Shown here: positions 2,209-61,875 of the stretch, piece by piece
Layout of the letters: every line of letters starts with the position of its first letter
How positions within the stretch are numbered: the stretch's first letter is position 1
Origin: Fistulifera solaris
Taxonomy: Eukaryota > Bacillariophyta > Bacillariophyceae > Naviculales > Stauroneidaceae
Direction of reading: 5' to 3'
NCBI GenBank assembly: GCA_030295235.1
Contig: AP026128.1
Span: 1-64,000, forward strand
Length of the DNA: 64,000 bases
The notes under the pieces: model-generated
Databases searched by the model: none
Seen by the model: only the letters and a program-made list of their open reading frames with translations
What the model was told of the DNA's origin: nothing
Position numbers and translations under genes: made by a program

Positions 2209-3055
2209 ATGCAGAGTAATTCTACAAAGAAAACGACTCTCAAAGTCGTCATTTTGGGCGATAGCGGGTACGTTGAAATTGCATGTTTGTGTTTGACGAC
2301 GACGACTCGTCGAGTGTTCGTTCTTTTCGTTCTACATGATTTGTTGTGTTCTATTTCTTCTCTTTCTTCTTTCGTTGTAATAAGTACGCACTTATCTTCC
2401 GCTCCTCTTACAATCCTACTTTTAGCGTCGGAAAAACGTCATTATTGAATCGCTATTCGACCGGAACGTTTACCGGTCAATACAAAGCCACGATTGGGGC
2501 CGATTTTTGACGAAACAAGTCGTTGTGACCGATTGGACGGGACAGCGTCATGTGGTACAATTACAATTATGGGATACAGCCGGACAAGAGCGATTTCAAA
2601 GTTTGGGTGTCGCCTTTTATCGGGGGGCTGATGCGGCCATGTTGGTGTACGACATCACGGATCCGGCCAGTTTTGATCATTTGGAGCACTGGCGTACCGA
2701 GTTTCTGCAACAAATAGGAGTTTCCATTCCAGCCTTACAGGAAGTACCTTTTCCGTTTGTGGTAATCGGCAACAAGAATGACAAACAGAATGAACGCTTA
2801 GTTCCAGCACAACGTGCCGAAGAATGGTGTCTTCGTGTCGGAGGGAATCGACCGCTCTATCGGGTCGAAACATCCGCGAAAACCGCACTGAATGTCGATG
2901 AAGCGTTTGAAGAACTGGCGCGTCTGGCATTGCAATATGGAGATTACAAACGCCGGACGCAACCACAACTCTTTGTGCCACCGAAAGTGCCTCCGATTGA
3001 TTTACGGCATAGTGTCAGTAGTACGGTCAGTGACAAGAACGATAAGTGTTGTTGA
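2209..3055 (+). CDS. RAB7: Rab7-type small GTPase
   Basis: A Ras-superfamily GTPase of late endosome/vacuole traffic. The start at 2209 gives MQSNSTKKTTLKVVILGDSG, matching the usual Rab7 N-terminus; an upstream in-frame ATG at 2122 would add an untypical hydrophobic stretch. One intron (GTACGT...TTTTAG, about 2268-2425) splits the P-loop and restores GDSGVGKTS. Other G boxes follow: YKATIGADF (switch I), WDTAGQERF (G3), NKND (G4) and ETSAK (G5). The C-terminus ends in two cysteines for geranylgeranylation. Just after GADF the frame breaks: a run of five T near 2505 must be six to continue into LTKQVVV, as in Rab7 proteins generally. Because every GTPase motif is intact on both sides, I read this as a likely base-calling error rather than a dead gene. 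Confidence 0.88.
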
Positions 3056-3513
3056 AGCGGATAGAAAGTGAACGACATTGGTGGAAGAACAGATGCTTTG
3101 CGAGACGGGAGTGAAGAGAAAAGAACAAAGAACGAGCTAACACCGTATATGGATCGGAGAAAAGGCAGATTGTCAAAAGGACACAACCTGTATTATCTCG
3201 TTTCTGGATCGTTGGATTGATTTCTTCGTAACGGAGTTCATGAGAATACAAAAGCATGGTCTCTAGCCTTGTAACTAAATCTAATGATGATGCTTTCGTT
3301 GTTCACTGTTTCATTTCGCACGTCGCACTAGACGTTCTAGAGAGAAGTCGTAGCGTTACCGTCACCGACTGACTCCATTTTCGCAGTCACAAAAAAGATT
3401 TTCGACAAAAGCATTTTTCTCGATTTCGATGAAACGCAATAAGCTTCGTTGAAATAACTAGTCTATTGAAACCTTCATTCCTCATTATTATTTCCTCCAA
3501 AGCATGTCTAAGA

Positions 3514-4209
3514 ATGAAACCAAGGCGCCAGAGAAGAGCTGCGATTGTATGGTTATTACTTTTCGCTCAACTATTGAAAGTCTCTGATGCGTTTCTGCGG
3601 CACCCTTTATCCGTCCAAGTCAGTTCGTTTCGTGTTCCGCCCTTCTTTGACACTCTTCATAACGACAAATGCGGAGAGAATAACGAAATGAAGAAGGACA
3701 ATAATGATTCAGAAGAGTCCACCATGCAATCATCATCGTCTGCCCTTTCGCAAGCACTATTGCTGCAAGCGCAACTACAAGCACTTCGACAAGAAATTCA
3801 GCAAGACGTTCAGAAATTACAACAACACAAAGAAGCACTCCTTCAGAAAAAATGCGACAAAGTTGATCAATGGATTGATACTCTGCTAGTCGCAACACAT
3901 GTCAATGAAGACACCCAAATGTTGCATTCGGTCGAAACGGTCGCACAAACGCTCATGGACGAACGATTCAGTCCGGAACAAGTGAATGCCATTTTTGAGC
4001 GCATGACACAAGACGATCCTCTGCAGCGAGTAGAATCGCCACTCGTTGAATTGCTGGTTGATGCGTGTAATTTGGTGGATTGTCTTGAAGAGAAAAATCC
4101 CAACAAGCGATGGAATGGACGGGTGGAAATGAAATTGCGACGAAAAATGTTTGCCATGAAGTGGGGCATTGAACTAGAAGAGGAGAAGGAGCGAAGTTTG
4201 TATGACTAG
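3514..4209 (+). CDS. Plastid-targeted coiled-coil protein, unknown function
   Basis: Start chosen at ATG 3514; the open frame extends upstream only to a TTG. The 232-residue product begins with a basic stretch and hydrophobic core (AAIVWLLLFAQLLKVSDAF) with a Phe at the predicted cleavage site followed by LRHPLSV. This resembles the ASAFAP-type junction used for import into secondary red plastids. Residues of about 85-130 are rich in Gln, Leu and Lys (for example QALRQEIQQDVQKLQQHKEA) and should form a coiled coil. The remainder is helical and charged, with a basic end. I do not recognise the family. Plastid stroma localisation is an inference from the presequence. Confidence 0.7.
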   Translation: MKPRRQRRAAIVWLLLFAQLLKVSDAFLRHPLSVQVSSFRVPPFFDTLHNDKCGENNEMKKDNNDSEESTMQSSSSALSQALLLQAQLQALRQEIQQDVQKLQQHKEALLQKKCDKVDQWIDTLLVATHVNEDTQMLHSVETVAQTLMDERFSPEQVNAIFERMTQDDPLQRVESPLVELLVDACNLVDCLEEKNPNKRWNGRVEMKLRRKMFAMKWGIELEEEKERSLYD

Positions 4210-4757
4210 TAACGGTGCGTTAAATGGACGCGTTTGGGACGACAAGGATCGATTTCAAATACTGTACACAACTAGGCAAGACGTCAATAAAATTGCCAAT
4301 TTTGATTGCTTCTATTCAAACGCGACAACCGCTCCTCATGACGCTTAGCGACATGACAGCCCATGTCTTCTTTTTGTCTTTCACTCGAAATTTAAATCCG
4401 ACGCGCGTTACCTTCGAAAAGCTCATTTGGCTTTTATTGTCGAAAAGACCCAAACTTGATAAACTTGTAGCGAAATATCAATAAAGCCACAAAATTCATT
4501 CACTATTGACCGTTTTGCAATAGCCATCTTACTATCGAAGTCGACTCGATAGTTCGACGACATAATCAGCTTTTTGTATGCGGTTGATTTGAGAATTATT
4601 TCTCATCCGATGAGTATCTTTTCTCGTCAGTCTATACTGTTGTTCGGTTGATCCACTTGACACGGCTCTTTTAATTATATACTGCAAACCGGTCTGATGA
4701 TTTGCAGGTCAAACAACGACGCCTACTCGATTAATGGCGACTGCTCGCCACCTGTTG
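4210..4757. other. Intergenic region between convergent genes
   Basis: Lies between the 3' ends of the coiled-coil protein gene and the minus-strand kinase-like gene. It holds only one short open frame (4224-4484) with no recognisable content. I see no RNA gene or repeat. Confidence 0.4.
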
Positions 4758-7205: not shown

Positions 7206-7666
7206 AGTAATACATTGTTGGGCAATATTCGTCGAGATGTGGCGATAATAATCATTCGTCTAAGCCTCTGTGGAAATATTGAATGCTCACAAGTGACTGG
7301 GGTGTTTTGGTGTCCTCATTGTGATCTGTTTACATGATATGGAACTTCTTTTATCAACAATTTACAGAGAACAACAATTCTGGATTAATGGTTTGTGAAA
7401 CACATGAGTCTACAAGCGCAGTAGCAGCGAGTCGTCGGCCTTCTGTCTCGTTCGAACGCCTGGACAATTAAAGTCTCCGACCTCTCCGCAATTCTGGACA
7501 TTCATTGTACCCTTTCCGTGAACTTGGTCCATCCTCGTGCTAGGAAAATGCATCCATTTCGTGGCGAGGAGTAACAAGTTTGCCAAAACATGCTTGGTGA
7601 GGGCTTGTAAAAAGCTCATAAAAACTTGTATACCCTCGACTTCAAAACGAGGAGAGACGAGTGAGA
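7206..7666. other. Intergenic region
   Basis: No supported gene between the unresolved stretch and the first LRR-like gene. One short minus-strand frame (7410-7619) is not distinctive. Confidence 0.35.
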
Positions 7667-9200
7667 ATGAGCCTCGTAAACATAAGTGAAGAAGATCGTC
7701 TTTCCGATTTCAGCGAAAGGCAACTTACCGTGGAGATTCAAGATTTGCAAGACTTGAGCATAATCTTGGAGACGGCAGGGGAAGCGACGGAATGCCTTTT
7801 GTGGTTACCTCAGCGTGAAGCGTTTCTCTCCAATGTTTCACAATTCGGGTCTTCGGTTCACATTCCAGGCTACAGGTGTCCTACCATGGAAATCGAGTGG
7901 TCAGACGAAGGCAGTGAGCGCTTTTCATATTGGCATGTACATGCGATGACAGTTACCTTGGAGCGTCAAATTGTCGCTCACCTCGTCACGCTCCCCGATG
8001 CCAACGGATTCACTAGTCTTTCTGTCACTTCGATGCTCGAAGACGACCAAAAAATCTCTTTCCATGCTCACCCGATCAAATCAAGAAGACCTTCCATTAT
8101 AATATTGATCGAGAATTGCACATTCAAGACTTCGCTCTGGATGAATCTCAAGCGGTTGCACTGGTGGAGCCTGAGTTGCCTTTGCGTATCAAGCTCAGCA
8201 GTTGTCAGTTTATTTCCAAAGATGCGAGCATGGCGGGACATAGCGCTTTCAATCAAGCTTTGCAAAGAAGATCAAGTCTTTGCATTCGCTGTCCTTTGGT
8301 CAAAATCTCCCTTTCCCACAAAGTCAGTTTCGACAACGTCAGCTCATTAAATTTTGGAGGATTGCCGCATCTCTCAAAGTCGTTGAGACTCTTTGTCTGG
8401 AAGACCTAGATGTCACGAAAGAAAACGGATTCGGAGAATTGTCGAGCGTTCCGCTAAAGAGACTAGTCCTAAGCGATTGCACGTTCGGACTCGAAGGGAC
8501 CGGAATTGAGATCATTGCCGAGCTCATTCACTGCGGTTGTCTATCGGAAGGTCTCGTGTGCGATGGCCTTGAATGTGAACTCGGTCCTTCATGGTACATC
8601 TTTGGCTGTGCCATCGCCAACTGTCAACTTTCAGAACTCCGTTTAGAAAATGTGGGCAGCAAAGAGGCGGCCCTATTGACGATGGGCGTCTTCGAGATGG
8701 TGGGACGCAACACCAAGCTCCAGCATCTCTCGGTCGGTGACTATTTCAACTTCTCGCCTGATGTATTTACATGGCTCATGGCAGCCTTATCTAAGCATCC
8801 GTCGTTGCAAGTCTTTCAAGTTGACAATGTCCACGAGGGCATTCCTCAAGATTTACCCGCGACGGCCCTCAAGTCGTTGGCCGAAATGATGCAGCTCAAC
8901 CGTAACATTGACGTCGATGTGCAGCTTTCTCGCTACAAAAGAAAGCTCGATGAGACCAGCTCGATTGAGCGATTGCAGAAGTTCAACCGATTCTCTCGGC
9001 AAGTTGGAAAGCTTGCCAAACTCGAAGATCTTAACGATCGTTTGACGTTGGTCGGTACGTCTGCAGTAGAAACCGGAAGTGATTTCCAAAAACTTTCTCT
9101 TTTAATCGCAGGTCATGTCGATATACTCGTGCCTTCATTCCGGGACGCAGTATATGGCGAGGAGGAAGCTTCGTCTCGAAAACGAGCACGATTAGGTTAG
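7667..9200 (+). CDS. LRR-like protein, family member A (frame changes twice)
   Basis: ATG 7667 starts MSLVNISEEDRLSDFSERQL. The product passes through three frames: 7667 to about 8095, about 8095 to 8270, and about 8270 to 9200. Each change is equivalent to one missing base beside an A-rich run. The reading across frames is continuous in character: leucine-rich segments of the ribonuclease-inhibitor type (for example LKRLVLSDCTFGLEGTGIEI and NTKLQHLSVG) and a C-terminal tail ending in KRARLG. The part around LNRNIDVDVQ...NRFSRQVGK aligns by eye with the equivalent part of the genes at 12471 and 46660, so these are paralogues. LRR-only proteins of this kind act in protein binding; the partner is unknown. 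Whether the gene is intact depends on confirming the two slips. Confidence 0.65.
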
Positions 9201-9499: not shown

Positions 9500-10536
9500 T
9501 CACCCCGCCTTTGTTCTTTTCGTAAGAGCTGCAATCTCCTTTCTGATCTCGTCCACAAACGCGGTGAGCGTCTTCTTCGTCTCCGCATCTTTCTCCCCTA
9601 CCAACGCCAGCTGACGCTCTCTCAACTCTTTCTTCAATGCGGAAATTTCCTTGCGAATATCCTCTTCTTGTTGCTTGCTCGTCATTTGAGCGATAGCCTG
9701 AGTAATCTGTCCGACACCCATCATCAATGCATCCAGTTTGTTATTCATATCCCCGTTGCTTGGCATAACAACGGGGGCAGCGATGACAGCAGCGGCAGCT
9801 GGAGCAGTCTCCGCCTTCTTTTCCCGGGACGCCGACCTCTTACCGGCAACTTCGAGGGAGTAGCCGTCTTAGTTGCTTTCCCATCACCACTCTTGTTGCC
9901 CGTCTTTTGTTTCTTTGTCGCTGGCGCTGCTAGACTTTCCGTCAAATTCTCCAGAGCCCCGGGAGGCAGTTTGAGCGGCATGACTACCGGAGGCGTTGTC
10001 ACGACAGCAGATATCGTGTTTTTGACAGCCGACATTCGTTCCTTGAAGTTTTTCTCTTCTTCCAAGACAGAGTAAAGTAATTTGCGACTTTCTCTTTCAA
10101 AATGCTTGACAAACTGCACATCTCGCTCATCCGTCAATTTCAAATGATCCGAGGCCAGGTAATTCAGAAGAAACTCTGCGTCTTGGTTCTTTGTATCCTT
10201 TTCCTTATGCTTCGGATCTCGTCGACGAATCTCTTTCATGATCATCAGTTTGTTGAATTTCAATGAATAACGCTTACGAAACGTTTGCTTATCTTCCAGT
10301 TGCTTCGCTTCCGATTCTGCGTAAGGACTTTTGTTCGTGATATCCCATTCGGGAAACATAGCTTGTACGATCATATAAATGTACGAGACGTGCGTCATGG
10401 AGTTGAGTGATGTCTCCATAAACTTTTGCAACTCTCCTTTCTCGGCTTCTTCTTTCGGAGGCGAATACGAGAGATCCTCGGGATTCAAGGCATCCAATTC
10501 CTCCGTCGACTTTGTATTCTTTCTTTTCCCGGCCAT
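9500..10536 (-). CDS. Unknown-family protein, tandem paralogue 1
   Basis: ATG at 10536 starts MAGKRKNTKSTEELDA. An N-terminal block (NPEDLSYSPPKEEAEKGELQ, then IVQAMFPEWDI, SPYAESEAKQL and MKEIRRRD) is followed by a Ser/Thr/Lys/Ala-rich linker. The end is a heptad-like coiled coil (ALKKELRERQLALVGEKDAE). Near 9860 the reading must change frame by one base (TT to TTT) to pass from the linker into the coiled coil. The adjacent gene at 10991-12079 has the same block order and aligns over the whole length. I do not recognise the family. The basic linker and EIRRRD motif make a nuclear role possible but unproven. Confidence 0.7.
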
Positions 10537-10990
10537 TGTGAAGTGAATTTTAGTGAAAAATGACCTTCTTTTGCTACAATGGCACAACAACAAAAGTTTG
10601 AAAATGCGCTGCAACTGCAACACGATGCGCGATGTTGACGTGCAGCGGCGATGACCGCGTGCTATGTGACCAATGACGAGGAAAACCCTAATAAACCTTG
10701 TCGGAACGGGATGTAACACCTGAAACTACGGAAACATATAATTTCAAAAAATAGCCTAAACCCGGATTTAGCTAGGCTTTGTGACCATGATAGATCATGA
10801 TTCTAGCTCAGGTCAATTTGACTTTTCCATCTCCTTTGAGGCTATAGAGTTATATCTCAGCTGCACGTAGGAATCCAAAAAGTAAAATTATCTTGTTATT
10901 AGTTGCCTGTCATTTCCAACTTCATAATGCAGACCGCCGTCGTGTCGCCCATTAGAGCTGTCATACCCCGTGCAGCGAGCATCCACTTTT

Positions 10991-12079: not shown

Positions 12080-12470
12080 GCTTTCTCGATAATATGGTGT
12101 CGCTTGCTGGTGGGTTCTTTGTCGACACCATGACAATGAAAGGCACACCCGTGCGCCCGCAACGGGTCATTTTGGGTTTGCTGCTGCTGCATCGAAAAAC
12201 TGCCCGTCCGATCCATCGGAGCGGCAGCCATAACACGGTTTGCGGAGTGAATTCAGTCGCGAACCGTCTACTTCTCACCATGATACTGTTAAAGATCATT
12301 ATTATACTGTAGAACGTGCTTGAGGAGGCCTTTTTACAACAGCCTCATTTTATTCTTTTCTGTTATTGTTTTTGTTCTTCGCCACCAGCTCGGTGCCTGC
12401 TTTTGAGATACATTCGACCTTTCGATCCATTAGAGTCTCTTTTTCAACGCTATTATTACAACTCCGTATC
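12080..12470. other. Head-to-head intergenic region
   Basis: Shared upstream region of the minus-strand paralogue 2 and the plus-strand LRR-like gene B. Contains a T-rich tract (about 12350-12380). No clear promoter motif identified. Confidence 0.35.
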
Positions 12471-14035
12471 ATGTCTTGCCTCCCGTTTGACACTTTGCAC
12501 GACTTGTTCAGCTATCATGAAGCCAAATTACGCGGTCAACCGCAACACGATTTTCGTCTCGGGTCATCCGTCGTGCAATTGCGTCTTTCTGAATCGTGCA
12601 CCTGTTCATCTATTTACCGACAAAGCAATAGACATGCAGTCGAGGTAGAGTTTGTTTTGATGCGACGGCGATTTGATGATCGGGGTTTATTTGTGGCAAT
12701 TCATGATGACTCTTGGGAAAAGCTGATTCCAGCGGCAACACAGATGCTGAGTTTACCGGACGAGTATTACGAAAAACTGGTCTATTGTCGTGCTTTGCCA
12801 TCTCATGTGTTACAGCAACTATTGCCCTTGCATCCATCGCGACGACAATGCTTATTTTGGGATGCTTCTTTCTCCAATAAGGAAGTCGCATCGTTGGCTA
12901 CTCTAAAAGTACCTATTCATCTCATTTTGCATCCTGGAATGTTCCAGAAAATGAAGAAACAGAGAAAAACCGCTAAATCTGAAAATTCACAAGAGCAAGA
13001 GAGTGATTTTGGCCAGCACTTTGTTCAATGTTTGGCAGAACGCACCAGCCCATTTGGCTCCTTGACCATTTACGAGAATGCATTTTCCGATACAGCCTGG
13101 CAACAATTTTTGCAACTATTAAACATGGAAACAACAACACCGATGCTCATACAAACACTGGAATTGATTGAACTAGACATACGCGACGCATCACTCCTAT
13201 CGAATGCCCGTGTGGAGACATTATCTTTATCGCACTGTTCTTTGGCGGATGATGGAGAGAGCTTGCAACAAGCACTGGAGCAGGGGGAGTGGTCCGACGC
13301 GTCTCGTGTTGGATCAAATTGTTGGCTGGGAAGGACGTTTGCATCATTCCCGCAAGACGGTACCTTTTGACGCGTGGACGAATCTCATGTTGACGTTTGC
13401 TAAACCGACCTGTCGGATTCAGCATCTGGAATTGGGGTCATCTCCCTATTACGACATTGGTGGTTTCTTTCTGGCTTTCTTGGAAGGCCTGGCACACAAT
13501 CACAGTCTTGTATCACTGGTTATTCGGAAATACGATGGTACGTAGTAGAAATTGGACGGTTGGCATTAAAGTTTGTTCGCCTATTTCTCATGAAGTCGTT
13601 TTCTCTCCAGGCATACTCAGTTTTTGGGACGACTTGGCAGACATTGTTCTCCATCACAAAACCTTACGAAGCATTGACTTGATTTACGAATCCACGGTGT
13701 GTCACGATGCAGCCCGTATGTTTCGACCGCTATCTCGTCTTTTGGACACGAATCGGAGCATTGTTATCTCGTACGAAGGGAAGAATCACAATCGAACGTT
13801 TGAACGCCTGATTGTACCCAAATTACGCATGAATCGTTTTCATAATGGCACACAAACACTCGGTCAAGTTTCTAGTGATTCTTTACTAGCATATTTGTTT
13901 GCACAAGCCCTGATCGGTGGATGCCGGGCAACGAACAACGTTGCGATAATGTTATCACAACAAGATTACTTGTTACGCACTTGGTGGTTGCTATCACGAA
14001 ATACCGACATACTGGTGAATTTCTTGCAGCGATAA
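12471..14035 (+). CDS. LRR-like protein, family member B
   Basis: ATG 12471 starts MSCLPFDTLHDLF. Leucine-rich segments follow (LHPGMFQKMKK, LTIYENAFSDTAW, IQTLELIELDIRD, VETLSLSHCSLADDGES). Near 13287 the frame changes at a run of five G (four G would keep it open). One intron is well supported: donor GTACGT at 13538 and acceptor TCTCCAG at 13610 (73 nt), joining KYDG to ILSFWDDLAD. The end reads NRSIVISYEGKNHN...MNRFHNG...NTDILVNFLQR and aligns with LRR-like members A and C. The likely role is protein interaction; no other domain is visible. Confidence 0.68.
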
Positions 14036-14124
14036 GAATAAGATGATTATAAAATACTAAGGAGGAGTTGCCTATATCTTACAGACTAGACAACCCGACG
14101 GGACTATCAATCAACTAAGGATGC

Positions 14125-14968: not shown

Positions 14969-16172
14969 ATGCCGTGTAAGTTTTTCTATGAGTTACAATT
15001 GAAAATAGCAAAGAGTGGGCAGAATAAACGAGAGAAAAATGGAGGAACAACAAGCGACCGAGCGAAAGAAATGAACGCGCTGTTGGCTGTTTGCGGCTGT
15101 TAATTCTATCACTGCAATCAGACCTTTTTGTTATTTTATGAAAAAGAAAAACGGGGCGCATTAGGGAGCATTGGCTAAATCAGAAGCGCGCCCCTGCCTT
15201 CGCCTTTGAACGTTTTGCATTTAGATTCATCATCAACTAATTTCCTTTTTCTTTTTTTCCATTTCTTTTGCAACAACAACAGCCCTGAAATTACAAAAGC
15301 GATTGGCCGCCGACGTCCTCAAAGTCGGAGCTAAGAAAGTTTGGTTGGATCCCAATGAAATCAACGAAATCAGTTTGGCCAATTCACGACGCAACATTCA
15401 AAAGTTGTACAAGGATGGTTTGATTATGAAGAAACCCAGTGTAGTGCACAGTCGTGCGCGTGTGCAACTTCGAAATGAAGCCAAGCGTAAAGGACGACAC
15501 ACCGGTAAGTTGGTTGTTTCGTTCAATTCGTTGAATGTTGTTGCTCGCAAAAAAGTGCCTGTTGTATACTGGTGGTGTTGGTGCTTTATTTCTTCTATGC
15601 GCTAGTACTGTTTGTGCAGGCCTATACAAACCTCGTTGCCATTTTCATCATTCGCTTGATGAAAACGGCAGCAACCGGCCAGACAACCGGTCTTGGGGAC
15701 TCGACCTCCACGCAGTGTTTTCTTTGCTTTCGTGAAAACATTTGTACTATTTGGAGAGACTACATTTCGTTTCAAGAAACAAAACTAACTCCTCTTTTCT
15801 GCTATCGCGTCTTGATAAACAGGTGTGGGTAAGCGTCGTGGTACTCGAGAGGCCCGTTTGCCCATGAAGGTCATGTGGATCCGTCGTCAGCGTGTTTTGC
15901 GTCGATTGCTCAAGAAGATGCGCGATGCCAAGAAAATTGACAAGCACATTTACCATTCGCTGTACATGTTGGCCAAGGGTAACCAGTTCAAGAATAAGTC
16001 TGTCTTGATTGAGACCATTCACGACATGAAATCTGCCAAGACCCAAGAGAAGACGTTGGAAGAGCAGGCCGTTGCCAAGAAGGCCCGTGCTAAGGCTCGT
16101 TTGGAGCGCAAGGCAGCTCGGGAAGCCAAGAAACTGGCCGATGCGGAAGCGGCTGCCCAAAGCGAACAGTAA
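14969..16172 (+). CDS. RPL19: 60S ribosomal protein eL19
   Basis: Three exons: 14969-14975, 15283-15504 and 15823-16172, giving 192 residues. The first coding exon is only seven bases (ATGCCGT), spliced through a 307-nt intron to give [18 protein letters not shown], the usual eL19 start. The second intron (318 nt, GTAAGT...AACAG) falls in [17 protein letters not shown]. The family's basic core ([36 protein letters not shown]) and the long charged helical tail ([20 protein letters not shown]) are all present. It is a component of the large cytosolic ribosomal subunit. No frame problem is seen. Splicing right after the start codon is common in ribosomal protein genes. Confidence 0.95.
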
Positions 16173-16420: not shown

Positions 16421-17532
16421 TCATATCGTCCACAAATCACCTACAGTCCCTGAGAATTGATTGTCGAGCCACTTCTGTATGTAGGGAACTTGGTAGGCAG
16501 GTTCTAACAAGAGCTCATTCCCCGGGATATCAATTAAAGGAGTCTGTGTAATGAATTCTTCCCACATGTATATAGCAAACCCAAACATGGCGACTCGGCC
16601 GTTCTGTAAAAACGAGTGTGTGCGAAGACGGTGAGAAATGATATACGACCATCAATTGCGTAATTAGCAGAACCAGCGTACCAGTAACTCGCGTTCTTGC
16701 ATATTCCGTTTCATTCGATCGTTTCCACCATCCATGATACTCAGCGGATCCCAAAAACAATCGGCGGGCAAGAAAGCTTCTCCAGTTTGTGAATCTTTCA
16801 CCGCCTGTGAATAAATATCGAGATATCCCAACAGCAGCATAATGCCCGTCATGAGTAAGGGAAAGTACGGCAAGGTGACCGTCGCCTGAAAGAGAGGCCG
16901 TCCGTATTCAGCATCATCCAGCAGCAGTCGATCAAGCATTTCCTGTAAGGGCCAAAACACGGCCGCCAGCATCGCCAATCGACCGTGTCGAATTTCGGCT
17001 TCACGATAATCGCGCAAAATCAGCGCCGGAGGCCGCTCCATGGAAGGGAGTCCCCACAGAAAGCGCTGTACATTTCCGATGGTATCTTGGGTCGATAGAC
17101 GTAAGGGATCAAAGCCGTAATCGCCCGGCAATTGATCATCTCCGACACCCGCACTGACCGGGACGACGCCTTGCGATAACGCTTGTTCGAGAAATTGAAA
17201 TCCTATTTGTTGCTGCTGTTGTTGCGGTCGGCTCGTGGTTTGCTTTGTGTCGGCTTGGTCGCTTTCGATGTGATCATCATCGTCGCTGACCAACAATTGC
17301 AACAGTTCCTCCAAGCTGGCTTTCTCAGTATCATTTTCATTTTCTTCCAATTCGAAAAACAAATCTTCAAACGACTCTAGCTCATCTAGTTCCCGTTGTA
17401 AAACAAGGCATCGTCATCGTCATTATCATTCATAATATCATTGATACGTTGAGATGACAAGGTCGGAAGACTCGGGTGGGTCGTCGAGAAGATTCGCGTT
17501 GCAGGATTGTTGCTGTTGTAGGGAACGATCAT
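16421..17532 (-). CDS. Light-harvesting (Lhc-family) chlorophyll-binding-like protein
   Basis: The main exon runs to 16682; a 78-nt intron (16604-16681) follows and the last exon is 16421-16603. The N-terminal part is unusual: an acidic, Asp/Glu- and Gln-rich region (EEN...VSDDDD...QQQQQQ). It is followed by the Lhc core: PGDYGFDPL, then REAEIRHGRLAMLA for helix 1, a hydrophobic middle helix (PLLMTGIMLLLGYLDI), and ERELLNGRVAMFGFAIY for helix 3, formed across the intron. The Glu and Arg/Asn-His residues that bind chlorophyll are present. A one-base slip in a G run near 17391 separates this from an upstream frame starting at ATG 17532 (MIVPYNSNNP...). No signal peptide is found, so the true 5' end may lie in another exon. 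The assignment to Lhc is firm; the subfamily is not. Confidence 0.82.
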
Positions 17533-18717: not shown

Positions 18718-19727
18718 TATCTGTCGTGCTTTCGATTTAATCACTACAACGCGCTACTTTTTTCAGAACAGCAGGTCTTCTTCCCTTCACTACAGAAATA
18801 TATCCGATATCATCGCCGCCTACAAAAACTTCTATTCATCACTGGCTAAAGCTTTCCGACGGTAGGCAGGACAATAATAAGCCCCGAAACGCCCAACAAG
18901 TTGAGTTTCCGTCTTCCCTACATAACTCACCTATTGAAACTCTTCAGTTAAAGTAAGTGTGACTGTATAGTTTGCCACTTAGTTTACGACCCAAGACCGA
19001 ATACCGAATACCGAATACGGCAGCAACAAACGGCATTGAGGCAGTCACAGCGTTACTAGTCTAGGGCATTGAAAATTGAAACGGATCCACAAAACAACAG
19101 TAAAGTAATACTTTAGGTTTTGAGCTTTCGCGCTCGGAGCGGTGATGAAGGTTTACCTAATCAGGCCTAAGATGAATTGGATTAGTAGACAGAATTTCAT
19201 TGAAAACAAGCTTACCAGGTATCATACCAAAAGCTTGTTTGCACCATCATCAAGGCTTCAAGTGGCCATTAGCTAGGAACTTCATCGTACCAAGAATCAG
19301 CTGATTATTCATGTTGCGTGCTGAGAAAACAAGGCTAAAAAAGAATCAAATATTCTCGTTCAATTTGTTAAAGCGATCGACCTAGCGTGAATGTACTTGT
19401 ATTTTCGTCAGATAGGCTTTCATCGTTGCTCCAATCAAATTATAGAGAACCTTGTTCCGAATGACTTGCTACCACGTTATTTGTACGCGGTGACACCGAT
19501 GTCCGCGGAAGGAACAATGTGGTTCGACGTGGCGATGACGTGGACAATTTCTTGCAATCTTTCGCTTCCCGCTTCCGCTTTTTTTTCATTTTTTTGGCTT
19601 CGGCATGAAACGAGTTTTTCATTTGGTTCAACAGGAAAGCAGCAAAATACGCCAGAAGTGCATGCCCTCATTACTTGCTTCGGCTACAATCAGTCCTGTT
19701 TCATTGTAAATCGTTTTTTCTTCCAAA
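18718..19727. other. One-kilobase intergenic region
   Basis: No supported gene. It holds a short tandem of GAATACC-like units near 19000-19017 and a perfect 10-base inverted repeat (AAACAAGCTT/AAGCTTGTTT) at 19204-19240. The remaining open frames are short and undistinguished. Confidence 0.4.
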
Positions 19728-20369
19728 ATGCCGCATCGAGCCGCTCTTCGGGCCGTCGAAACGAGGAATTTCGCCAAGATGATGCAACAACAAACGCACT
19801 TTGAGCCTCCTTTAGAAGCGTTTGTGCCTATTTCGAACACGACTTTGTCCACCGTAGATGAATTTATGGAAGCCTTTAACGATGTCGATTCGGCTGCATT
19901 TTTAACCAATGGGCGAAAAGGATGTCTTCGTCGTCATCGAGATAAAGCCGAGTCATCGTCATCTTCGCGCTCGGTTCAGTTCTCAACCGTAGAAGTTCAT
20001 TTACATGAAATGATATTAGGCGACAATCCCAGCGTGCTCATGGGACCACCTTTGACGATTTGCTGGTACGGATCTTGTCACGAAACTTTTAGTTTGGAAG
20101 AGTTCGAACAGGCTCGCGGACCGCCCAAGCGAAGAAATGAGATGATATGGAACCGCGAAAGACGAGAAAACATTCTCATTCACTCAGGTTACAGTCGGCG
20201 AGAGATCGACAAGGCGGCCGAAGCAGTCTTTAAAGCTAATCAACAACGAATGGAAAGCACAAAAGACTTTAGGAAAAAGAGATCGGCTTTTCGAAAGTTC
20301 CTTGACGTTTTCAAAAAGCCTGGAGAGCCAAAGAAAGTGGATCCAATGCACTTGAAACGAAACTTTTGA
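19728..20369 (+). CDS. Hypothetical conserved-looking protein, 213 aa
   Basis: ATG 19728, uninterrupted. The middle has a compact, non-repetitive block (FSTVEVHLHEMILGDNPSVL, then GPPLTICWYGSCHETFSLEE) followed by a basic helical region (YSRREIDKAAEAVFKANQQR) and a Lys-rich tail. The block VEVHLHEMILGDNP followed by GPPL.I.WY looks like a conserved motif of a family widespread in diatoms, known to me only as uncharacterised. No targeting signal. Function unknown. Confidence 0.7.
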   Translation: MPHRAALRAVETRNFAKMMQQQTHFEPPLEAFVPISNTTLSTVDEFMEAFNDVDSAAFLTNGRKGCLRRHRDKAESSSSSRSVQFSTVEVHLHEMILGDNPSVLMGPPLTICWYGSCHETFSLEEFEQARGPPKRRNEMIWNRERRENILIHSGYSRREIDKAAEAVFKANQQRMESTKDFRKKRSAFRKFLDVFKKPGEPKKVDPMHLKRNF

Positions 20370-20628
20370 GACCAAGCTTGACTTTTCTATGATCAACCAT
20401 TTCTATCACACGCGAGCCTATACCATTTTTACGCTAAGAACGGACGCGCTGTGTTTTTTTCTCATGCAAGTCACATCGCTGCCGCATACCAGCCATTGAA
20501 AGCAGATTCGCCTAAATACGTTAAAGCAATAGCATGTATTTCAATGGTGGTAACAATGATTTGCGTTATCTTGAGGGATATAGTCATTTTATAAATTATG
20601 TAAACTGCTTTATGAATCATCAATTGCT

Positions 20629-21996: not shown

Positions 21997-24216
21997 ATGA
22001 GTAAGAAGAAAGACACGAAAGAAGACAATCAGATGAACGAATCCTCCGATTCGAAAGAGCAATCCTTGCGCGAGGCCTTTGAAGAGGAGCGCGATGAAAT
22101 TCTAAAACAGCTTCCGGATACTTACAAGAGTATGTTTGGGAGAATTGGCTTTGCCAAGTGGTCCGGAATGACTTTACCAGTTTTGATTTTGAATCCGTAT
22201 CATGTTCCTCCGTATCCAGTCCGTCAACAATGGTTTAAACAATATGAGAATGTAAGTCTCCCTTGCGCTGTTCTGAATTTAATTTCCATTTCCTTCTAGT
22301 CAGACTCTCGCTGACTTCTTTTCTTGGTTATGATCAATTGACGAATTACTTTTAGTGTCAAAAAATCGGAAAAATGGAACGACTGCCCTACTTGGTATAC
22401 TGGTACGGAACATTGCAAATGGACGAGGCGTACTCTTTCTTGGGGCCCAAATTAGTCACTCTTTACGAAAACGCCGTCAAGAAAAAGACGCATCAACTAC
22501 CAACGGCGATTGTAAAGAAGCAAAACGATCCTAATAAGGTGTTAAACGACAATGATAGGAATGTGGTTCGTGGCTACGCCGAAATGGAAGAAGATCTTCC
22601 CTTGGAGCCGGCCGATCGAAAGCGGGGTGTAACGGAATTCCAAGAAGATTATGAGCTCCAGTTATTGTACGAAGAGAATGTTGATGTCGAGGAAGAAGAG
22701 GATGATGTTAAAAAGGAAGCACAACCGAAAAAGAAACGAAAACAGATGAAGCAACAGGAAGCACAAAGTGACGAAGAAGACGGAGATTCGGCCAATCAGC
22801 CAAAAAAAGAAGCAAAAGAAAACGAAGCAGGCAAAGACAAATGAAGGAAAAGATGCCGATAAATCCAAGAGCAACTCGAAACCGAAAACTAAACCGAAGA
22901 AAGTCGACAGCAAGGTAAAAGAAGTGCGCGACGATGAATTTGGTTTTGACGAGGATGAAGACTCTACGAGTCAGAAACTAGATCCTGTTGAAGAGTACGA
23001 GCAGGTTTTAGCAGCCGACAAATTAGCAGTCTCGGATGATGAAATGGATGATAACTACGATCCCCCGTCGGAAGTCGAAGAGAAAGAGCCTGATTACGAA
23101 GAAAAGAAATTGTCGAAGAAGGGAAAGGCCAAAGGAGAAAAGGAAGATCGCAAACCTGTCAAAGTTGAGAAAAGAAAAAGAAAGAACCCAGACCTGCAAA
23201 GGTTCTTTCCGAGGAAGAGTTGAAGAAGCGCGAGTTAAAAGCGTTTCGCCAATGCGAGGAACGATTCTGTCCATTGCTAGAGCGGTGGCAAAAATATTGG
23301 TTGCATCTCAAGATCCAGATGGTCTTCAGAAAATTCTGCACAAACTTCTTCCAGTTGTAAGTGACTTTTCCGCCATTTTCATTGAGGCCTATGATATTTC
23401 GAAAATGTTGAAGGAGACCAGAAACGTACTAAAAGCTAAGAATGCCAATTTGGAGAAATGTTCAGAAGTGAAGGAAGCTTTTCGCGAATCGTATTCTTCG
23501 AAGAGGCCTCAACTTCCCAGCAATCTCAAGATTAGGAAGAACGTCGAACTTGGAAAGAGCGTGTCGTTTTCACCTGTAAAAGCGGAGAGAAAAGTTGAAT
23601 CCGACGAGTCTCGACCTGCACCAGCTAAGGAAGAAATGCTTTCCCTTTCAAAGTCAAATGTGAGCAACAGCAGTAATTCAGGTGCACCACGCAAAGAATC
23701 GTCATCGGAAGGTCGATCACTTTCTCCAAAACCTGCTCCAGCGAAAAAGAAGTTTAGTTTGACGAATTTGATGGCAAAAGCGAGAGTCGATCTCGAAGCC
23801 GATGACACGAAAGAATATAGAAGCACTCCGGCAACTTCCAAGAAAGCGATAGTCCTACCCGCCTGGATGACGCACGAGATTCACGATCCTTCTATTTTGG
23901 AGGACCCCCGTGCGCTGGCTTTAGAGTTTCTTTTGGACATGGCATCGTTCTTTCCTTCGTCGAAAGTGAACAAAGAAAGTATAGCAAGAGGAGTAGAAGC
24001 TGCCATACACAGAAGTGCAAACACAAAATCGTCTGATTGGGTACCTGAATACTGGAAAAAGTGCATCTGCTTGTAGCAGGCATATGCGGCAAGTTGCAAC
24101 CAACAAGGCTTTTCAGTTTGGTGATGAATGGTCGATTTGAGACAGCAGACCAATTGGTGGCACTACCAGACAAGAAACTCATCGACGCCTTTGAAGGCCA
24201 TTTGATAGATTTCTAG
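21997..24216 (+). CDS. PWWP-like / TFIIS-type chromatin or elongation protein
   Basis: ATG 21997; intron 22252-22355 (GTAAGT...TTTTAG). The first 150 residues resemble a PWWP module of the HDGF/LEDGF type: GRIGFAKWSGMTLPVLI, then LVYWYGTLQMDEAYSFLGPK. A long charged linker follows. Around 23250-23480 there is a helical region of TFIIS-N/LEDGF-IBD character (LQKILHKLLPVV, ISKMLKETRNVLKAKN). The end resembles the TFIIS central domain (RGVEAAIHRS...WVPEYWKKVHLLVAGI...RFETADQLVALPDKK). The gene changes frame several times, at A7 near 22806, near 23195, near 23310 and at A5 near 24058, so the protein can only be read in pieces. The domains are coherent across the breaks. Role inferred: histone-mark reading coupled to transcription elongation. 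Confidence 0.65.
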
Positions 24217-24303
24217 CAAGAGAGGATGTGGTTTATAACGTATATATCATGATAAAGCGGTTGAATAGTAAACTGGGGTCTAGTTTGGTAGAAAATCATT
24301 CAT

Positions 24304-28468: not shown

Positions 28469-28788
28469 CTCTTTATCTCTTTTTGATTGAGAATGAATGA
28501 ATAACAAGGAAATAACCCGATGAATAAATGCAAAGTTAGTGATGTTCGTCCATATTGAACGCAAAGGTGAGGGGGAGGCGCGCGTAGGCTTCCATTATTT
28601 AATGTTTCCGTTGAGTCCCGGATTTTGTAATTATGAAACACAAAATTACCCGCGCCTCGTGCCCAATTACGCGCATCGCGAAAACGAAAAAAAAGAGAAC
28701 TTCGTTATAAACTTAGACTAGAGGATTTAAACTCACATCTTTCAACAATAGCAATACTAAAGCCTTTGGTTGCAACACAACACACAAT
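28469..28788. other. Intergenic region
   Basis: Short region between the disordered protein and the two-TM protein. Nothing beyond AT-rich sequence is seen. Confidence 0.35.
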
Positions 28789-29990
28789 ATGCCGTTTATT
28801 TATACCTGCTGTCAGGGAGAGCTGTTCTTGCATCTCCCGGGGCTGGGATTGACGCATGTTCCGACGGACTATCGGGAACTTTTGCAGGGATTGTCGATCA
28901 TGTTACCAGCTTATGTTGCGGGTTGGGCCATTCTGTCGTGGTTGTGCTGGATCTTGTTATGCCGTATCGTTCCGTCCTCATCAAAAGACCCAGTTAAGCC
29001 GACATCATTATTTTATATTCACAGCAGTTTGCCTCTATGGAGTATGCTACTGGCGTACGGGTGTTTGTCGCACGTGCTGTTGCCGGGAGAAGTCGGCCGA
29101 CAAATCTGTCGGATCGCTTTGCCGCCTTCGCAAAATTGGTATTACCGCTACAAAGACGCCAAGGCGCGGCTGAAAGAATGGGAAAACAATCCGCTGTCGA
29201 GTCCACTGGGAAATGTGACGGCCTCGCAGGGACCGGAAGGTGCCTTGGATGTCTTCTTTTCGCCGGAACGAGCCAACGAAATTTATGAGCGCGTCCTAGC
29301 CTTGAAAGAAACACACTGGGTCTATTCGGCACCACTGGGTCGAGGTTCGGGTTTGTTTTTATTGGGTCGGAAATACGATGGCGCGAAACAAGCAGGGCAA
29401 TACTTGAGTTTTGAGCAACAAACGGATTTGGGTCAAGAAATGTGGCAGTATTTTGGAGATGTCATGGAAGAACTACGACAAGGAACCGAGCGATTGGTCA
29501 AAAGGAAGCTCGATTGTATCGCGAAAGTTGGCCGCCGACGTTCATCTTGCACGCCGGATCGGCTCTCTCGGTGCATCAAGACATTATGAATGTCCATGTG
29601 GACGCGATTTTAATGAAGGAATTTCAAGAAAAACATCATCAAGACACGAAGTTGACCTGTCAATGGGATCATCAATTGACTTTACTCGTTGCGTTGCACT
29701 TGCCGCCGCACGGGGCTCATTTCCAGTACTACGACTCGCATGGCAAACGGTACCGAGTTCCCCATGTTTTGGGTAAAGGGCTGGTCTGCGAATGTCAGCG
29801 TCCCCACAATCTAGGACCCTTTCATCCACTCGATGCCGATTCCGATGAATTGCGCGTCGTATTACACGCGTTTTTAGTGCCGTGTCGCAGGGACGATAAC
29901 GACAGTGATGTGCATTATCAAGTCATCGGTCCACTTGGGTTTGGAACGCCGTATTCGACCTTTGAAACGACGTTGGAAATGGCGAGTTAG
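28789..29990 (+). CDS. Two-TM membrane protein of unknown function (one frame change)
   Basis: ATG 28789. Two hydrophobic segments lie near the N-terminus (MLPAYVAGWAILSWLCWILL and LWSMLLAYGCLSHVLLPG), then a soluble domain. Near 29500-29515 the reading changes by one base at an AAAA run, from ERLVK to EARLYRESWPPTFILHAG. It then continues to 29990 through SALSVHQDIMNVHVDAIL, LPPHGAHFQYYDSHGKRY and PHNLGPFHPLDADSDELR. The soluble part is rich in His and aromatic residues, but I recognise no enzyme signature. Likely membrane-anchored with a large soluble domain; compartment unknown. Confidence 0.62.
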
Positions 29991-37858: not shown

Positions 37859-37897
37859 ATCAATAAGTTAGTTCGCTTTATAGAAAATATCTATCAT

Positions 37898-43975: not shown

Positions 43976-44462
43976 TCGTGTAATTATTGAATTCGGAAGG
44001 AAAGTGTTGACAGACTACAATTTGCGCAGTCGTATGAGTATGGTCCGATAACCTAGCTCCTGCTTCGCCCAGCCCTAGCTCCAGTCAGTCCTGTGTACAG
44101 TACGGACGTCGAACCCGTGTCGGAAGTCCCTTGTAGATGTGCCAGCTAAGACACTCCCGCAATCTGTAGTCTCAGTGACGTAGGTGGAACATCCTGGGTC
44201 TTGGGAAAGCAACGTCATACGTCATTGATAGTGTGTACCGGTACGCTGAGAACAGATTTTTCAGAACGGCATCGGGTCATTGTCCACATAACAGCAAACG
44301 TGTTCGTAATAGGAATTACGGGTTTGCGCAATTTTGCGTTCTGTTTCGTTTTTGTGGCTCATTTCTTGCGCAAGTTCTTGCTCTTTTCCTCTACAACAAT
44401 AACAAGTAGTAGCTAGTATCCTACCTTCCTTTAATTACCTAACAAACAAACCGAATCAAGCC
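43976..44462. other. Intergenic region
   Basis: No supported gene. Contains CAGC/TAGCTCC-like short direct repeats near 44050-44080. Confidence 0.35.
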
Positions 44463-44833
44463 ATGACCAACGAAAAGAAAGACGCCGTTGAAACTGCGAT
44501 TGACAAATTAAAGCCCGTCTTGTCGAATATTTCCTTCGGTGCCGTCATGGGCTATTGCAGTGGGACGGCAATGAAACAGATTGGCAAAGCCACGGCCTTT
44601 TGGTCGGTCTCGGCTTCATTGGCTTGCAAGGACTCGCTCATTATGGTTATGTGCAAATTGATTGGATGAAAGTGAAAGAAAGTGCCCAAAAGTCCATTGA
44701 CACCAACGGCAATGGATCCATCGATGCCGAAGACTGGAAAGCATACTGGAAGTCGTTGAAGAAGATCTTGACGAACAAAGTGCCGGCGGCGGGAGGATTC
44801 AGTCTCGGATTCTTGTACGGATTGCGTAATTAA
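44463..44833 (+). CDS. FUN14-domain protein with EF-hand-like loop
   Basis: ATG 44463. FUN14 features: LKPVLSNISFGAVMGYCSGT (first helix), KQIGKATAF, then LVGLGFIGLQGLAHYGYVQI (second helix) and an end GGFSLGFLYGLRN (third helix). Between helices 2 and 3 lies DTNGNGSIDAEDW, which matches an EF-hand calcium-binding loop (D-x-N-x-N-G-x-I-D-x-x-D). The frame slips by one base at a T run near 44601 (four T where five are expected), directly before LVGLGF. FUN14 proteins sit in the mitochondrial outer membrane or plastids; FUNDC1 is a mitophagy receptor. The calcium link is inference. Confidence 0.85.
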
Positions 44834-44997: not shown

Positions 44998-46309
44998 TTA
45001 GATGGCTTTTTCTTCTTCTTTGCTGGGCTCACTAATTGCCCCGGTAGTGTCCATCGGTGTCGCCTTTTCTTCTTCTTTCATGACGACATCCGATCGCTGT
45101 ACTTCCTCGATTTTCGCAGTTGCTTCTTCCAGGTTGTGGGTGCAGAGTGGCTTCTTGTGTTGTTGTTGCTGCTGCTGCCGCTGGATCGGTAGTAGTCACT
45201 TCCGCAGCAGTCGTAATAGTAGATTCTTCGGCTGTAATTGACGTTTCCATCGGTACGGGGTCTTGTGAAGACGGTCGTTCATTCTTTCCCTCGACTGTGG
45301 GGACGTCCTGGATAGCCACATCGACGGGATTCGTCGTAGATGGATTCGTTGTCGCTGGTTCCACAGCAGTGACATCCATCTTTGCGGGCGAGGATTCTTC
45401 TACAACAGTGCTTTTCAATTGAATGGGGATTTGTCGTCCTTTCGTGGCCCCGTACGTGGATTTTGGCTTGGGCGGCGCGGCCGGGACGGCCAACGAAATT
45501 TTGCGTTGCACTTTGGCGCCACTGACAATATCGTACGTCCGGGCCGTCAATTGATAGGGTGCCGGCGGCAAGACGACACCGCTAAAGCAGTGCGAAGGTA
45601 TCGGTGGCAACGGCATCCGATTGATGTGTTGCGCGACTTGATGGAGTTTGGGAATTTGCGCCGTCGTCGCAATGCGAAAATCGGGCCGCAATTGAACGGC
45701 CAATTTGAGGTCGCCTTCTTGGATATCGATGCGATTGGCGGCAAAGGCCAAATCGTGGGCATGGCCCATCAATTCTTGGGCAAAGCGTCGGGCTTGTTCC
45801 AACAAGCACGTCATGGCTTGCGGTGTCACATCGGCGGTCGTTAATCCGTAATGACTCAAGACTTGTTCGACCAACGGTACTTGTTCGGGCAATATGCTGC
45901 TATTTTGAATTGCAGCTGAAGTATCCCACAAGACATCTTCAATACGATACCATAAAGGATCCATTTTTCGAGCTTCCGCTTGCGCTCTTTGTTTCGCTAA
46001 ATCGGCTTGCGCCAATTTGGCTTGTTGCAGAGCCGTCGGTGTTGTTGTATTCTTATTGTTGTTGTTGTTGGGGTTCGTTGCCACAGGCTTCTTGCGCGAT
46101 GCGGGTTTCTTTACTTTGGCTTGCGTTCCGGCGGCGCCGGAAGCTTTTGTGACGGTTTTTGTTTTCGTACTGCCGCTTTTGCTCTTTGCGGTAGGAGCTG
46201 ACGGGGCGGGGGCGTTTGTAGTTGCTGTAGCTGGAGGAGCGTTGGCCGTCGGAGGAGCCGTTGCGGCTGATGGCATCGGTTGCGACGCTGTGGAAGGATT
46301 GCTCGTCAT
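44998..46309 (-). CDS. TAF9: Transcription initiation factor TFIID subunit 9 (TAF9)
   Basis: ATG 46309 starts an Ala/Pro/Thr-rich, then Lys-rich, disordered region. The histone-fold core follows: VEQVLSHYGLTTADVTPQAM, LLEQARRFAQELMGHAHDLA and RIDIQEGDLKLAVQLRPDF. Next is the TAF9 conserved region PLPPIPSHCFSGVVLPPAPY then QLTARTYDIVSG. TAF9 pairs with TAF6 in TFIID and SAGA. The C-terminal end slips frame near 45135-45150 (a C run): the coding frame continues in an acidic tail (LEEATAKIEEVQRSD...KEEEKATPMD...) and stops at 44998. One slip only; the core is intact. Confidence 0.88.
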
Positions 46310-46659
46310 TAGGTCTTTTTGATATCTCTTAGCAAGCTCTTAGCAAGAGCGGTAATTCCTATACGTCTTTTTGTTTTGTATCAATAGAATAGAATATTAT
46401 AAGTCGGATGTTCGAAAAAATAGACGCAATAATTGAAATGAATGAATAAAGAGCTTTTGCTGCGACGATCGCAACAAAAATAGAAGCCGGCAAGTGGTTT
46501 GTGTTTTCGTCTTCACGGTACTAACTGCTCTATGACCGAAACGTCCAGTAAAAATCTAGGGAGAGTGGAATGCGAAAACGCCCGGGGGCCGTGCTTCCCG
46601 CCAACAGTTTTTAGCAATGAGTGTTTTTCCAAATAAATAGGCGTTCTCATGATTATTGC
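46310..46659. other. Intergenic region
   Basis: Upstream of TAF9 and of the LRR-family relic. The minus-strand frame 46513-46809 is a shadow; nothing else seen. Confidence 0.35.
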
Positions 46660-54400: not shown

Positions 54401-54404
54401 AATC

Positions 54405-59138: not shown

Positions 59139-59375
59139 GGCGAAGTGTGCACCAATGGGTCCAGTATTGATGAGTTGTATGCCCTGAATCGCTTCTATAA
59201 TGGATCGGCATCCTCGCTGCAAGAATCTACCTTTTGGCGGGCATCGCTAATAAGCACGGCATTGACAACAGGCGCCTTGAATAATTTCCAATATACAGCA
59301 CTGCTGCTCTCTAATCATGTGGACATGTTGTTCGATTATGTTCAAGCTCTGGATCTTTTGCTAGTCTATTCTTAA
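59139..59375 (+). pseudogene. LRR-like family member C, right part (relic)
   Basis: Continues the relic at 46660-47116 beyond the Copia insertion. The frame GEVCTNGSSIDELYALNRFY runs to a stop at 59373-59375 (DALLLVYS-type end: QALDLLLVYS). The section NRFYNGSASSLQEST...LLLSNHVDMLFDYV aligns with MNRFHNGTQTLGQVS...LLSRNTDILVNF of the gene at 12471, and spacing across the insertion matches that paralogue almost residue for residue. Little or no host sequence was lost at the insertion. Confidence 0.75.
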
Positions 59376-59636
59376 AAGGCGGAGAAAATGAATGATTAAA
59401 CCGTACCCAGGTAACTAACGCGACCGGTACCTCTTATCTGAAACTGCAGTAAACACTTTTTGCCTAGGTTCTGATTAATACGTTTCTCGATTGCGACCCA
59501 AAATAATAATTTTTCAATTGACGAGTGAATGAAAGACCTAGCTTAGATCGATCGGTCGACGTACAGTCACGCATGAACGCATTATTCTGCAACCAAAACA
59601 TCATTATTTCTCATACAAAATAACTCTTTTGATTCT

Positions 59637-61875
59637 ATGAATTCACAAGAAGCCCTCGAAGCTATTCAGTTCCTTCAACAGGAGGCGCGCAACGAAGAAG
59701 AGCGCTCTACAGGCGCATCGCAACGTTCGGCGTCTCCTCTTTCGTTGCGATTATCACCGATTGCGCCGAGATCTGCTGTTTCAAGTCCTAGCAGTTCTTT
59801 TGATAACGATGATCGACACAACAATTTACCAAATCACACGCGAGATGCTAGTCCTATTCGTACCGCATTTGCTCAATTGCTGGAATTGTCCTTCGAATCG
59901 CAAATAAGGCATCACGATGGTGAAGAGGAAAATGCTGACACGGAGCAGCACGGAAAACATCCTATTGCGATGCAACAAAGGGTAGAGGATCCTCTTCAGC
60001 AAAGAGTACAAACACTTCTTCCTCCACCGCCGCCGCCTCCTCCTCCTCCATCACCACGTCCTGCTTTTCGGTCTGATGATGTCAGTTCGACGACAAGTAC
60101 CGAACACATAGTAACAACCAAAACGCATTATTCCGTAACCAATCCGCTCGCAAGCATCGATACTTCCATTGTTGATGAGAATGATGATGTTGAAGACGAA
60201 AGTGATGATGAAGACACATTTTCGGAGCCCTTCGAATCGTCATTTGAGAAAAAGAGTCGTGAAAATTCTTTGGAGACGTATGAATTGAATGAAACCAGCC
60301 GTGAAAACTCACTCGATCGATCCGACCGAAACTATAGTATCAATCCGCAAATGAACTCGATTCTGGAAAGTGACGCCAATGTTTCGAAAGAAGACCTGGC
60401 TACGGAAACATTGGAGGATCCTGATGCTCGCAATATTTCGGCGGCAGATTTACTGGACGAACATTTGGATGGACTGCTAGCGTCCGACAAGGGCAACGAA
60501 GAGAAAGTTCGAGGTGATGCCAAGGGTGTTGCTGGGCGGGTCAATCAAACTATTCATAAAATCAAAGAAATGGCTACGCCGTATCTCCCGACAAAGCTAC
60601 CGACAACGACTTGTCTTTCTAGGGACAACGAGGATAATAAGACGACGTACGCAAAACGTCCATTTCCAAAAAATTCATCGAATGATGTTACTGCCGTCAC
60701 TGTGATTGATACAGGTCACATCTCATCTGTTGCAAGGGATGGACCCAGCAAATTGTTATCGGTCGACCAACAAAGAGTACCGATGATGCGAATGCGCCAT
60801 CCCGCCGCACAAGACTTTCTCACGGAGCATGAAGCATCCTCACCACACCATGAAGAAGAGTTTGTGAAGGGAACGTCACAACAATCGAGAGCGCAAGCCA
60901 CGGAGAAGCAGCGGCAGCGGCGCGTGAAAGAATCGTTAAATGGACCGGATGATATACTTGTGTGCAACAACGTTGTATGGAAGGGGTTTGAGAATTTTGT
61001 GGTTTCTCGCTGCGGCAATGCGTCAGATGCTGTCGTCGAGAAAGCGGCCAATCGCCAGAAGGAAGCATCAGCGAGGCAATACAGCCCGGCATGCAGTGTG
61101 GCCAGTGAAAAAAGTGAAGGTTCAGAGAGTATGATGCGCCGGCTTTCCCAACGTTATCTCAAATCCGACGCCACGGTTGTCAGTTCTCTGGACGGCAGTG
61201 CATCCAATCGGTCGGGAGGTGGAAGCCGACCGACTCAGGATGCACCGATTACTGTATTGAACCCTATTCCGAGGCATGTCACTGGCGCTTCAGCACAATT
61301 TCCTGCGCAGCCAGCCATTAGGGAAGGGGACTGTTTGCCCGCTGACCAATTTGTACGAAAGTTACGAAACGAAGGACTTGATATCTTGATCCATAGAAAA
61401 GCTCACGCGGCTGACGTCATGGCAAAGCCTTTGAGAGCACATGTTTATTTGGAAGATGCGAAAAGGGGGGAATAAGGGGGATTTTTGGGGTCCTTGGCTT
61501 GTTTGGTTTATCGGAGACAGCCCAGTGCGGAAGGGCATTGACCTGTTTGATATACGATCGCTCGACAAAGCGTCCGCACTGCAACTTGAACAATATCCCT
61601 TAGCCATGCCTGGTCGTAGTCTATTGCTGCTCATGAATGAAGGGCCGGATCATGTTTTTGAAATGCAGGACGAAGCTTCAGCAGTTTCTTTCGTGCATGG
61701 CATTCGTTGGCTGATCGCTCATTTATCATTTAATCTTATTGCTGGAAATGTCAATGTCAGTTGTGACATGATTGAGGTCACCGACCACCAAACTCCGTGG
61801 CTGGAGTCCCATCTGTCCAGTTTGATGAATGACTTGACTAATGTTCTTGTAGATAAGTCGGCGACTGCAATGTAG
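59637..61875 (+). CDS. Disordered protein with PH-like C-terminal domain
   Basis: ATG 59637. The first ~550 residues are disordered: Ser/Thr/Arg-rich, a poly-Pro run (LLPPPPPPPPPPSPRP), acidic patches (DENDDVEDESDDEDTFSE) and two related motifs (SRENSLETYELNETSRENSL). The C-terminal ~150 residues are globular (KAHAADVMAKPLRAHVYLED, GDFWGPWLVWFIGDSPV, FEMQDEASAVSFVHGIRWLI), with the beta-rich pattern and final amphipathic helix of a PH-like fold. The frame slips by one base at a G run near 61468 (six G; five keeps frame), right within the domain. Likely a membrane- or phosphoinositide-linked signalling protein, by inference. Stop at 61873-61875. Confidence 0.6.

Follow-up and report, generated by a model that had tools for sequence, protein, structure and literature searches.

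Most frame slips in genes of Fistulifera solaris contig AP026128.1 are probably residual homopolymer errors of a long-read assembly

Homopolymer errors left in long-read assemblies have been described repeatedly (PMC8812927; PMC8011154; PMC12007338), including in two diatom assemblies (PMC8147415). These reports describe single-base gains and losses at runs, broken gene frames and repeats that are harder to correct. The same traits are found in the sequence analyzed here, bases 1-64000 of contig AP026128.1 (C13; this whole stretch is hereafter the window) in a 51.7 Mb, 61-contig assembly of the alga Fistulifera solaris, in which many genes hold a recognizable product only if a base is gained or lost. 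Unlike in those cases, the genome is that of an allodiploid, where a dead homoeologue has to be weighed seriously and excluded. In a eukaryotic counterpart, a Trypanosoma brucei assembly (PMC8445201), long-read insertion/deletion (indel) errors reportedly truncated genes and were removed by correction and phasing; there, allele collapse added further errors, whereas here the subgenomes lie on separate contigs. Another point of comparison is the unequal gene content of homoeologous chromosomes in F. solaris itself (PMC5935921). The likeness is that one copy of a pair is missing. Here, however, some genes that have no spare are slipped in both copies, which loss cannot explain.

F. solaris has been reported to be allodiploid (PMC13276009; PMC5935921). 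Two diverged copies are therefore expected for most regions, and a homoeologous contig can be used as an internal standard. Ras-family matches across the assembly fall mostly on paired contigs, and two target sites published for clustered regularly interspaced short palindromic repeats (CRISPR) editing of F. solaris have two exact matches each, on C7/C8 and C38/C39, with none for the reversed control. The contig that parallels C13 is C14. Larger blocks of the window are ~80-89% identical to it; of 55,049 aligned bases, counting 20 kb past the window, 13.2% are mismatched.

On the evidence given below, we consider it very probable that most of the frame slips are residual homopolymer-length (indel) errors of a long-read assembly, rather than dead genes or new biology. 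Runs would have been called mostly one base short and less often long in the long-read consensus, and incomplete polishing would have left such errors standing. They would then affect both subgenomes, and genes would look broken just through a missing or extra base. Since we found no paper describing this assembly in the literature, we infer the sequencing technology. The polishing history and the error status of each single slip in the window are likewise inferred.

Genes without a spare copy

A sequence-only reading of the window had listed twelve slipped genes and proposed uncorrected long-read error as the best explanation, arguing that constrained genes such as those for Rab7 and TAF9 cannot all be dead. 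The explanation stands, but the argument is insufficient. Most regions examined are present in the assembly as two diverged copies, so a dead Rab7 or FUN14 gene in one subgenome would be tolerable and constraint alone cannot exclude dead copies. The explanation is instead carried by three observations: breaks in both copies of CCT genes, a published run length that differs from the assembled one in dde, and slips in both subgenomes as well as in an interior pair of contigs.

Because constraint is not decisive in an allodiploid, genes without a spare copy were sought by a whole-genome search with the CCT/Cpn60 family. Subunits of CCT are essential in eukaryotes. Among six pairs, 7 of the 12 copies run over more than one frame, with pieces that touch or almost touch in their coordinates (four of the seven seen as sequence, three from coordinates only). 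This tally leaves out C27/C29 and C19/C20, where the breaks may be introns, as well as C21/C22, C46, C60, C61 and the C3/C4 matches near 0.9 Mb, which were not identified. Two pairs could be named by comparison with solved CCT structures. By our own reading of the frames in the DNA, CCT-epsilon on C25/C26 is slipped three times in one copy and once in the other, and CCT-alpha on C3/C4 twice and once; in neither gene do the places of the slips agree between the two copies. Among the best-scoring candidates, no further copy of either gene was found: the next full-length genome match is 36% identical for CCT-epsilon (shorter pieces up to 39%) and 37% for CCT-alpha (a 57-residue piece reaches 58%). 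No living cell would be expected to do without both copies of CCT-alpha or CCT-epsilon. Both copies being broken without a spare, loss of one homoeologue cannot explain these breaks, and gene counts from the assembly would miss genes that the cell must have.

The second case comes from a set of 14 gene-by-target CRISPR sites of 23 bases each, which cover apt and dde in both homoeologues (PMC13276009, Tables 1-2). Twelve of these published sites match the assembly exactly. The two misses are the gDDE2 site in both dde homoeologues, where a T6 run is published and the assembly has T5 in each. At the location of this T run, the VDE domain (PF07137) changes frame in both copies (profile positions ~115-128). 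The C7 copy changes frame as a single missing base would predict. In C8, another T run ~30 nucleotides upstream is likewise one base shorter than in C7 and contributes to the break. The T6 length given in those tables fits the dde reading frame.

Slips in two pairs of homoeologous contigs

We compared 84 kb of C13 with 90 kb of C14 and, as a single interior pair, 20 kb from the middle of C1 with its partner C2. Open reading frames were kept as coding if substitutions in the C13-C14 alignment fell mostly on third positions. For each frame-changing indel cluster, we asked which copy holds the open frame, requiring at least 60 nucleotides of coding flank on either side, and cross-checked the assignment at the protein level with tblastn. 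In C13/C14, 61 clusters change the frame net. The 40 with sufficient flanks comprise 17 slips in C13 (11 inside the window), 9 slips in C14, 10 ambiguous cases and 4 open in neither copy. C1/C2 yielded 19 clusters; of the 13 flanked ones, 5 are slips in C1, 4 are slips in C2, 3 are ambiguous and 1 is open in neither. Slip density per aligned coding base is about the same in the two pairs. As far as sampled, the slips are thus not local to the window, as both subgenomes and the interior pair are affected.

These counts bear directly on fractionation after hybridization, by which the C13 copies would be young pseudogenes and the C14 copies functional. In an allodiploid genome one copy is dispensable in principle, nine named genes of the window are open in C14 where C13 is slipped, which is the pattern of one-copy loss, and in-frame stops turned up in automatic tests. 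Against this, C14 is slipped as well (9 of the 26 polarized events), C1/C2 likewise show slips on both sides, and CCT-alpha, CCT-epsilon and dde are disabled in both copies rather than in one. The third-position bias is kept on both sides, and the Rab7 proteins are 97% identical after the slip, a weak argument, since very recent loss would look no different. Taken together, fractionation is a very improbable account.

Residual error fits the nature of the slips. The two pairs together gave 35 polarized slips, and 25 of these are lone single-base changes. Scored only from the bases beside the gap as placed, 18 of the 25 touch a run of at least 3 (background, 22.3% of coding positions), 15 a run of at least 4 (7.3% of coding positions; binomial p 1.4e-11) and 7 a run of at least 5 (2.2%). 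T is the commonest base (17 of 25). The sequence-only reading was thus right that slips lie mostly at runs and that gains and losses both occur (6 and 19, respectively).

A preference for runs, mostly of T, is also what programmed ribosomal frameshifting or other recoding would require, as ribosomes can slip at such places; moreover, the two copies share the place of the break in dde and at one junction of the PWWP/TFIIS gene. Yet most polarized slips are in one copy only (by construction of the polarization), gains and losses both occur, and the CCT slips do not share conserved sites. No shared slip site was seen by eye, no motif search having been run, and for dde the published run length fits the frame. 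It is therefore exceedingly improbable that recoding reads through the slips.

Several observations weigh against residual error as the explanation. Seven of the 25 lone slips touch no run of at least 3, and 10 of the 35 polarized events are not lone single-base changes, so that some non-run or multi-base events may instead have arisen as natural indels or through the alignment. Runs are favored by natural indels too, and hence the association with runs cannot by itself tell error from mutation. Eighteen of the 53 flanked clusters could not be placed on either side (13 were ambiguous and 5 had no open copy), and short flanks excluded 27 of the 80 clusters. At the gAPT4 site, a published run of six G agrees with the assembly. 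The older assembly behind the published dde site could have run errors itself, and one site only was compared, although an older error coinciding with the dde frame is unlikely. In-frame stops opposite sense codons number 6 and 8 in C13/C14 and 3 and 2 in C1/C2 by automatic count, and stops inside protein matches number 14, 26, 2 and 10, with 10 of the 26 in telomere repeats. These stop counts are raw: on inspection, many lie in frame ends, in introns or beyond a slip, and being unclean they were not relied on as a pseudogene test. With these points in mind, it is conceivable, if clearly unlikely, that a minority of the window slips are real, namely recent one-base losses at runs beginning to silence C13 copies (for example, LRR A and two-TM) among more numerous errors.

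The 35 polarized frame-breaking events, found over 47,196 aligned coding columns per copy for two copies, amount to ~1 in every 2.7 kb of a copy's coding sequence, and to ~1 in every 3.8 kb when the count is limited to the 25 lone single-base slips. Users of the assembly should be warned that automatic annotation would label many sound genes pseudogenes and inflate counts of homoeologue loss. A simple check that requires no reads is to look for breaks in both copies of a gene that has no spare.

Genes of the window

Genes were matched to the labels of the sequence-only reading via open reading frame layout, Pfam matches and translations. Nine of the twelve listed genes are indeed slipped in C13 where C14 is in one open frame:

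2340..3052, plus strand: Rab7-like gene (PF00071); slip at T5 2504-2508, polarized to C13; C14 in one frame of 241 amino acids.
7622..9197, plus strand: LRR A; slips at two places, one near A6 8049-8054 and the other near 8277; C14 in one frame of 529 amino acids, C13 in three frames.
9503..10725, minus strand: tandem paralogue 1; slip near 9811-9850, a net change of 4 nucleotides and not 1; C14 in one frame of 353 amino acids.
12324..14032, plus strand: LRR B; slip at G5 13283-13287; C14 in one frame of 411 amino acids across it.
16667..17532, minus strand: Lhc-like gene (PF00504); slip at A4 17400-17403; C14 in one frame of 317 amino acids, C13 changes frame.
22356..24197, plus strand: PWWP/TFIIS gene; slip near 24055, where C14 is open.
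28717..29987, plus strand: two-TM gene; slip at A4 29500-29503; C14 has slips of its own elsewhere in the gene.
44292..44830, plus strand: FUN14 gene; slip at T4 44598-44601, polarized to C13; PF04930 is matched over 1-92/92 in C14 and 24-92/92 in C13.
59577..61875, plus strand: PH-like gene; slip at G6 61465-61470 or close by; C14 in one frame of 597 amino acids, C13 with a frame change between 61462 and 61490.

The three runs that had been named as examples (T5 at 2504-2508, T4 at 44598-44601 and G6 at 61465-61470) are all present. In LRR A, the slip at 8277 was polarized by the DNA test, and the one at 8047, ambiguous there, was settled by a separate frame comparison. The PH-like slip failed the 60-nucleotide flank rule and rests on the protein-level and frame comparisons. 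Some junctions are broken in both copies alike: a second one in LRR B near 13.5 kb is split in C14 also, as are the earlier junctions of the PWWP/TFIIS gene (~22.8 and ~23.2 kb). LRR A, the PWWP/TFIIS gene and the PH-like gene have no Pfam match; the names LRR, PWWP/TFIIS and PH-like have no Pfam family behind them and are those of the sequence-only reading.

The other three listed genes behave differently, and a further gene lies outside the list:

31579..33000, minus strand: Gfo/Idh/MocA oxidoreductase (PF01408/PF02894); GT-AG introns 32870-32723 and 32113-32034.
45035..46339, minus strand: TAF9; one frame through the TFIID-31kDa domain in C13 (profile 4-121/122).
20632-21334: acidic Ser-rich gene; a stretch without aligned counterpart in the C14 sequence compared.
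19710..20386, plus strand: gene outside the list; probable slip at T4 20308-20311; C14 in one frame of 257 amino acids.

For two of the listed genes the proposed slip had to be abandoned. The oxidoreductase frame appears to be split by the two introns, with borders judged from sequence, and needs no slip. In TAF9 the domain is continuous in C13, and the clear slip is in the C14 copy, which stops at 107/122; two more frame-changing clusters, at 45128 and 45582, are ambiguous in polarization. The slip in the additional gene is weaker than the others, its downstream coding flank being just 80 nucleotides long. C14 contains another, incomplete copy of this gene (22232-23229 and 23782-24279), and the C13 stretch shows one copy.

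An intron also mimics a slip in another gene, and the contig starts in telomere repeats:

15303..15880, plus strand: ribosomal protein eL19 gene (PF01280); intron 15505-15822, GTAAGT...CAG, with exons that join in both copies.
1..468, plus strand: telomere repeat (CCCTAA)n, recognized by its sequence and by self-similar matches to the C14 end.

The eL19 gene was considered as an in-window gene broken in both copies and rejected, its apparent frame change being the intron. Unrecognized introns thus account truly for the oxidoreductase and eL19, but in the nine genes C14 reads through the same place, offset by a few nucleotides. Introns are refuted as a general account, explain 1 of the 12 listed genes and are hardly credible for the rest. 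Inspection likewise removed false tblastn slip rows: the subtelomeric 1198_1960 (three rows), the overlap row 2425_3052 and 6990_7245; rows 17666_18317 and 15508_15829 are the eL19 intron. The telomere repeat shows that the window is a chromosome end; a search of a plasmid collection with window positions 1-6000 gave no match.

Within the eL19 intron, a block at 15556-15790 is 97% identical between the subgenomes (226/233 aligned bases), and the rest of the intron is 76-85% identical. The block is possibly an intron-borne small RNA. Rfam assigns it no family; at gathering scores, no Rfam family was found in the window, and the one chance-level match lies in this intron.

A Copia-type insertion and the source of the errors

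About 13 kb of C13, at 46.3-59.5 kb, have no counterpart in C14 and contain pieces of a Copia-type reverse transcriptase (PF07727). Over 1,585 aligned bases, a Copia copy on C5 differs from that on C13 by 14 substitutions and 14 gaps (10 of a single base). Such differences are consistent with poorer correction in repeats, but the copy was possibly defective when inserted, so poorer correction is not proven.

These copies also bear on how errors would have arisen. Some may stem not from raw base calls but from polishing with short reads that belonged to the partner homoeologue or to another copy of a repeat. Reads are difficult to place where each region exists in two similar versions and retrotransposons recur, and the numbers of substitutions and gaps between the Copia copies are in line with this. 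On the other hand, a cross-placed read would be expected, in principle, to bring in the other copy's base changes too. We regard such a contribution of polishing as possible, though rather unlikely, within the broader reading of the slips as residual assembly errors.

The insertion comprises two nested repeat pairs, one of 514 nucleotides without substitutions and one of 228 nucleotides with one. In the former, a pair resembling long terminal repeats (47976-48489 and 54405-54916), only two gapped bases occur in 514, and the absence of substitutions marks the element as young. Despite its youth, the open reading frames between these repeats are short and overlapping.

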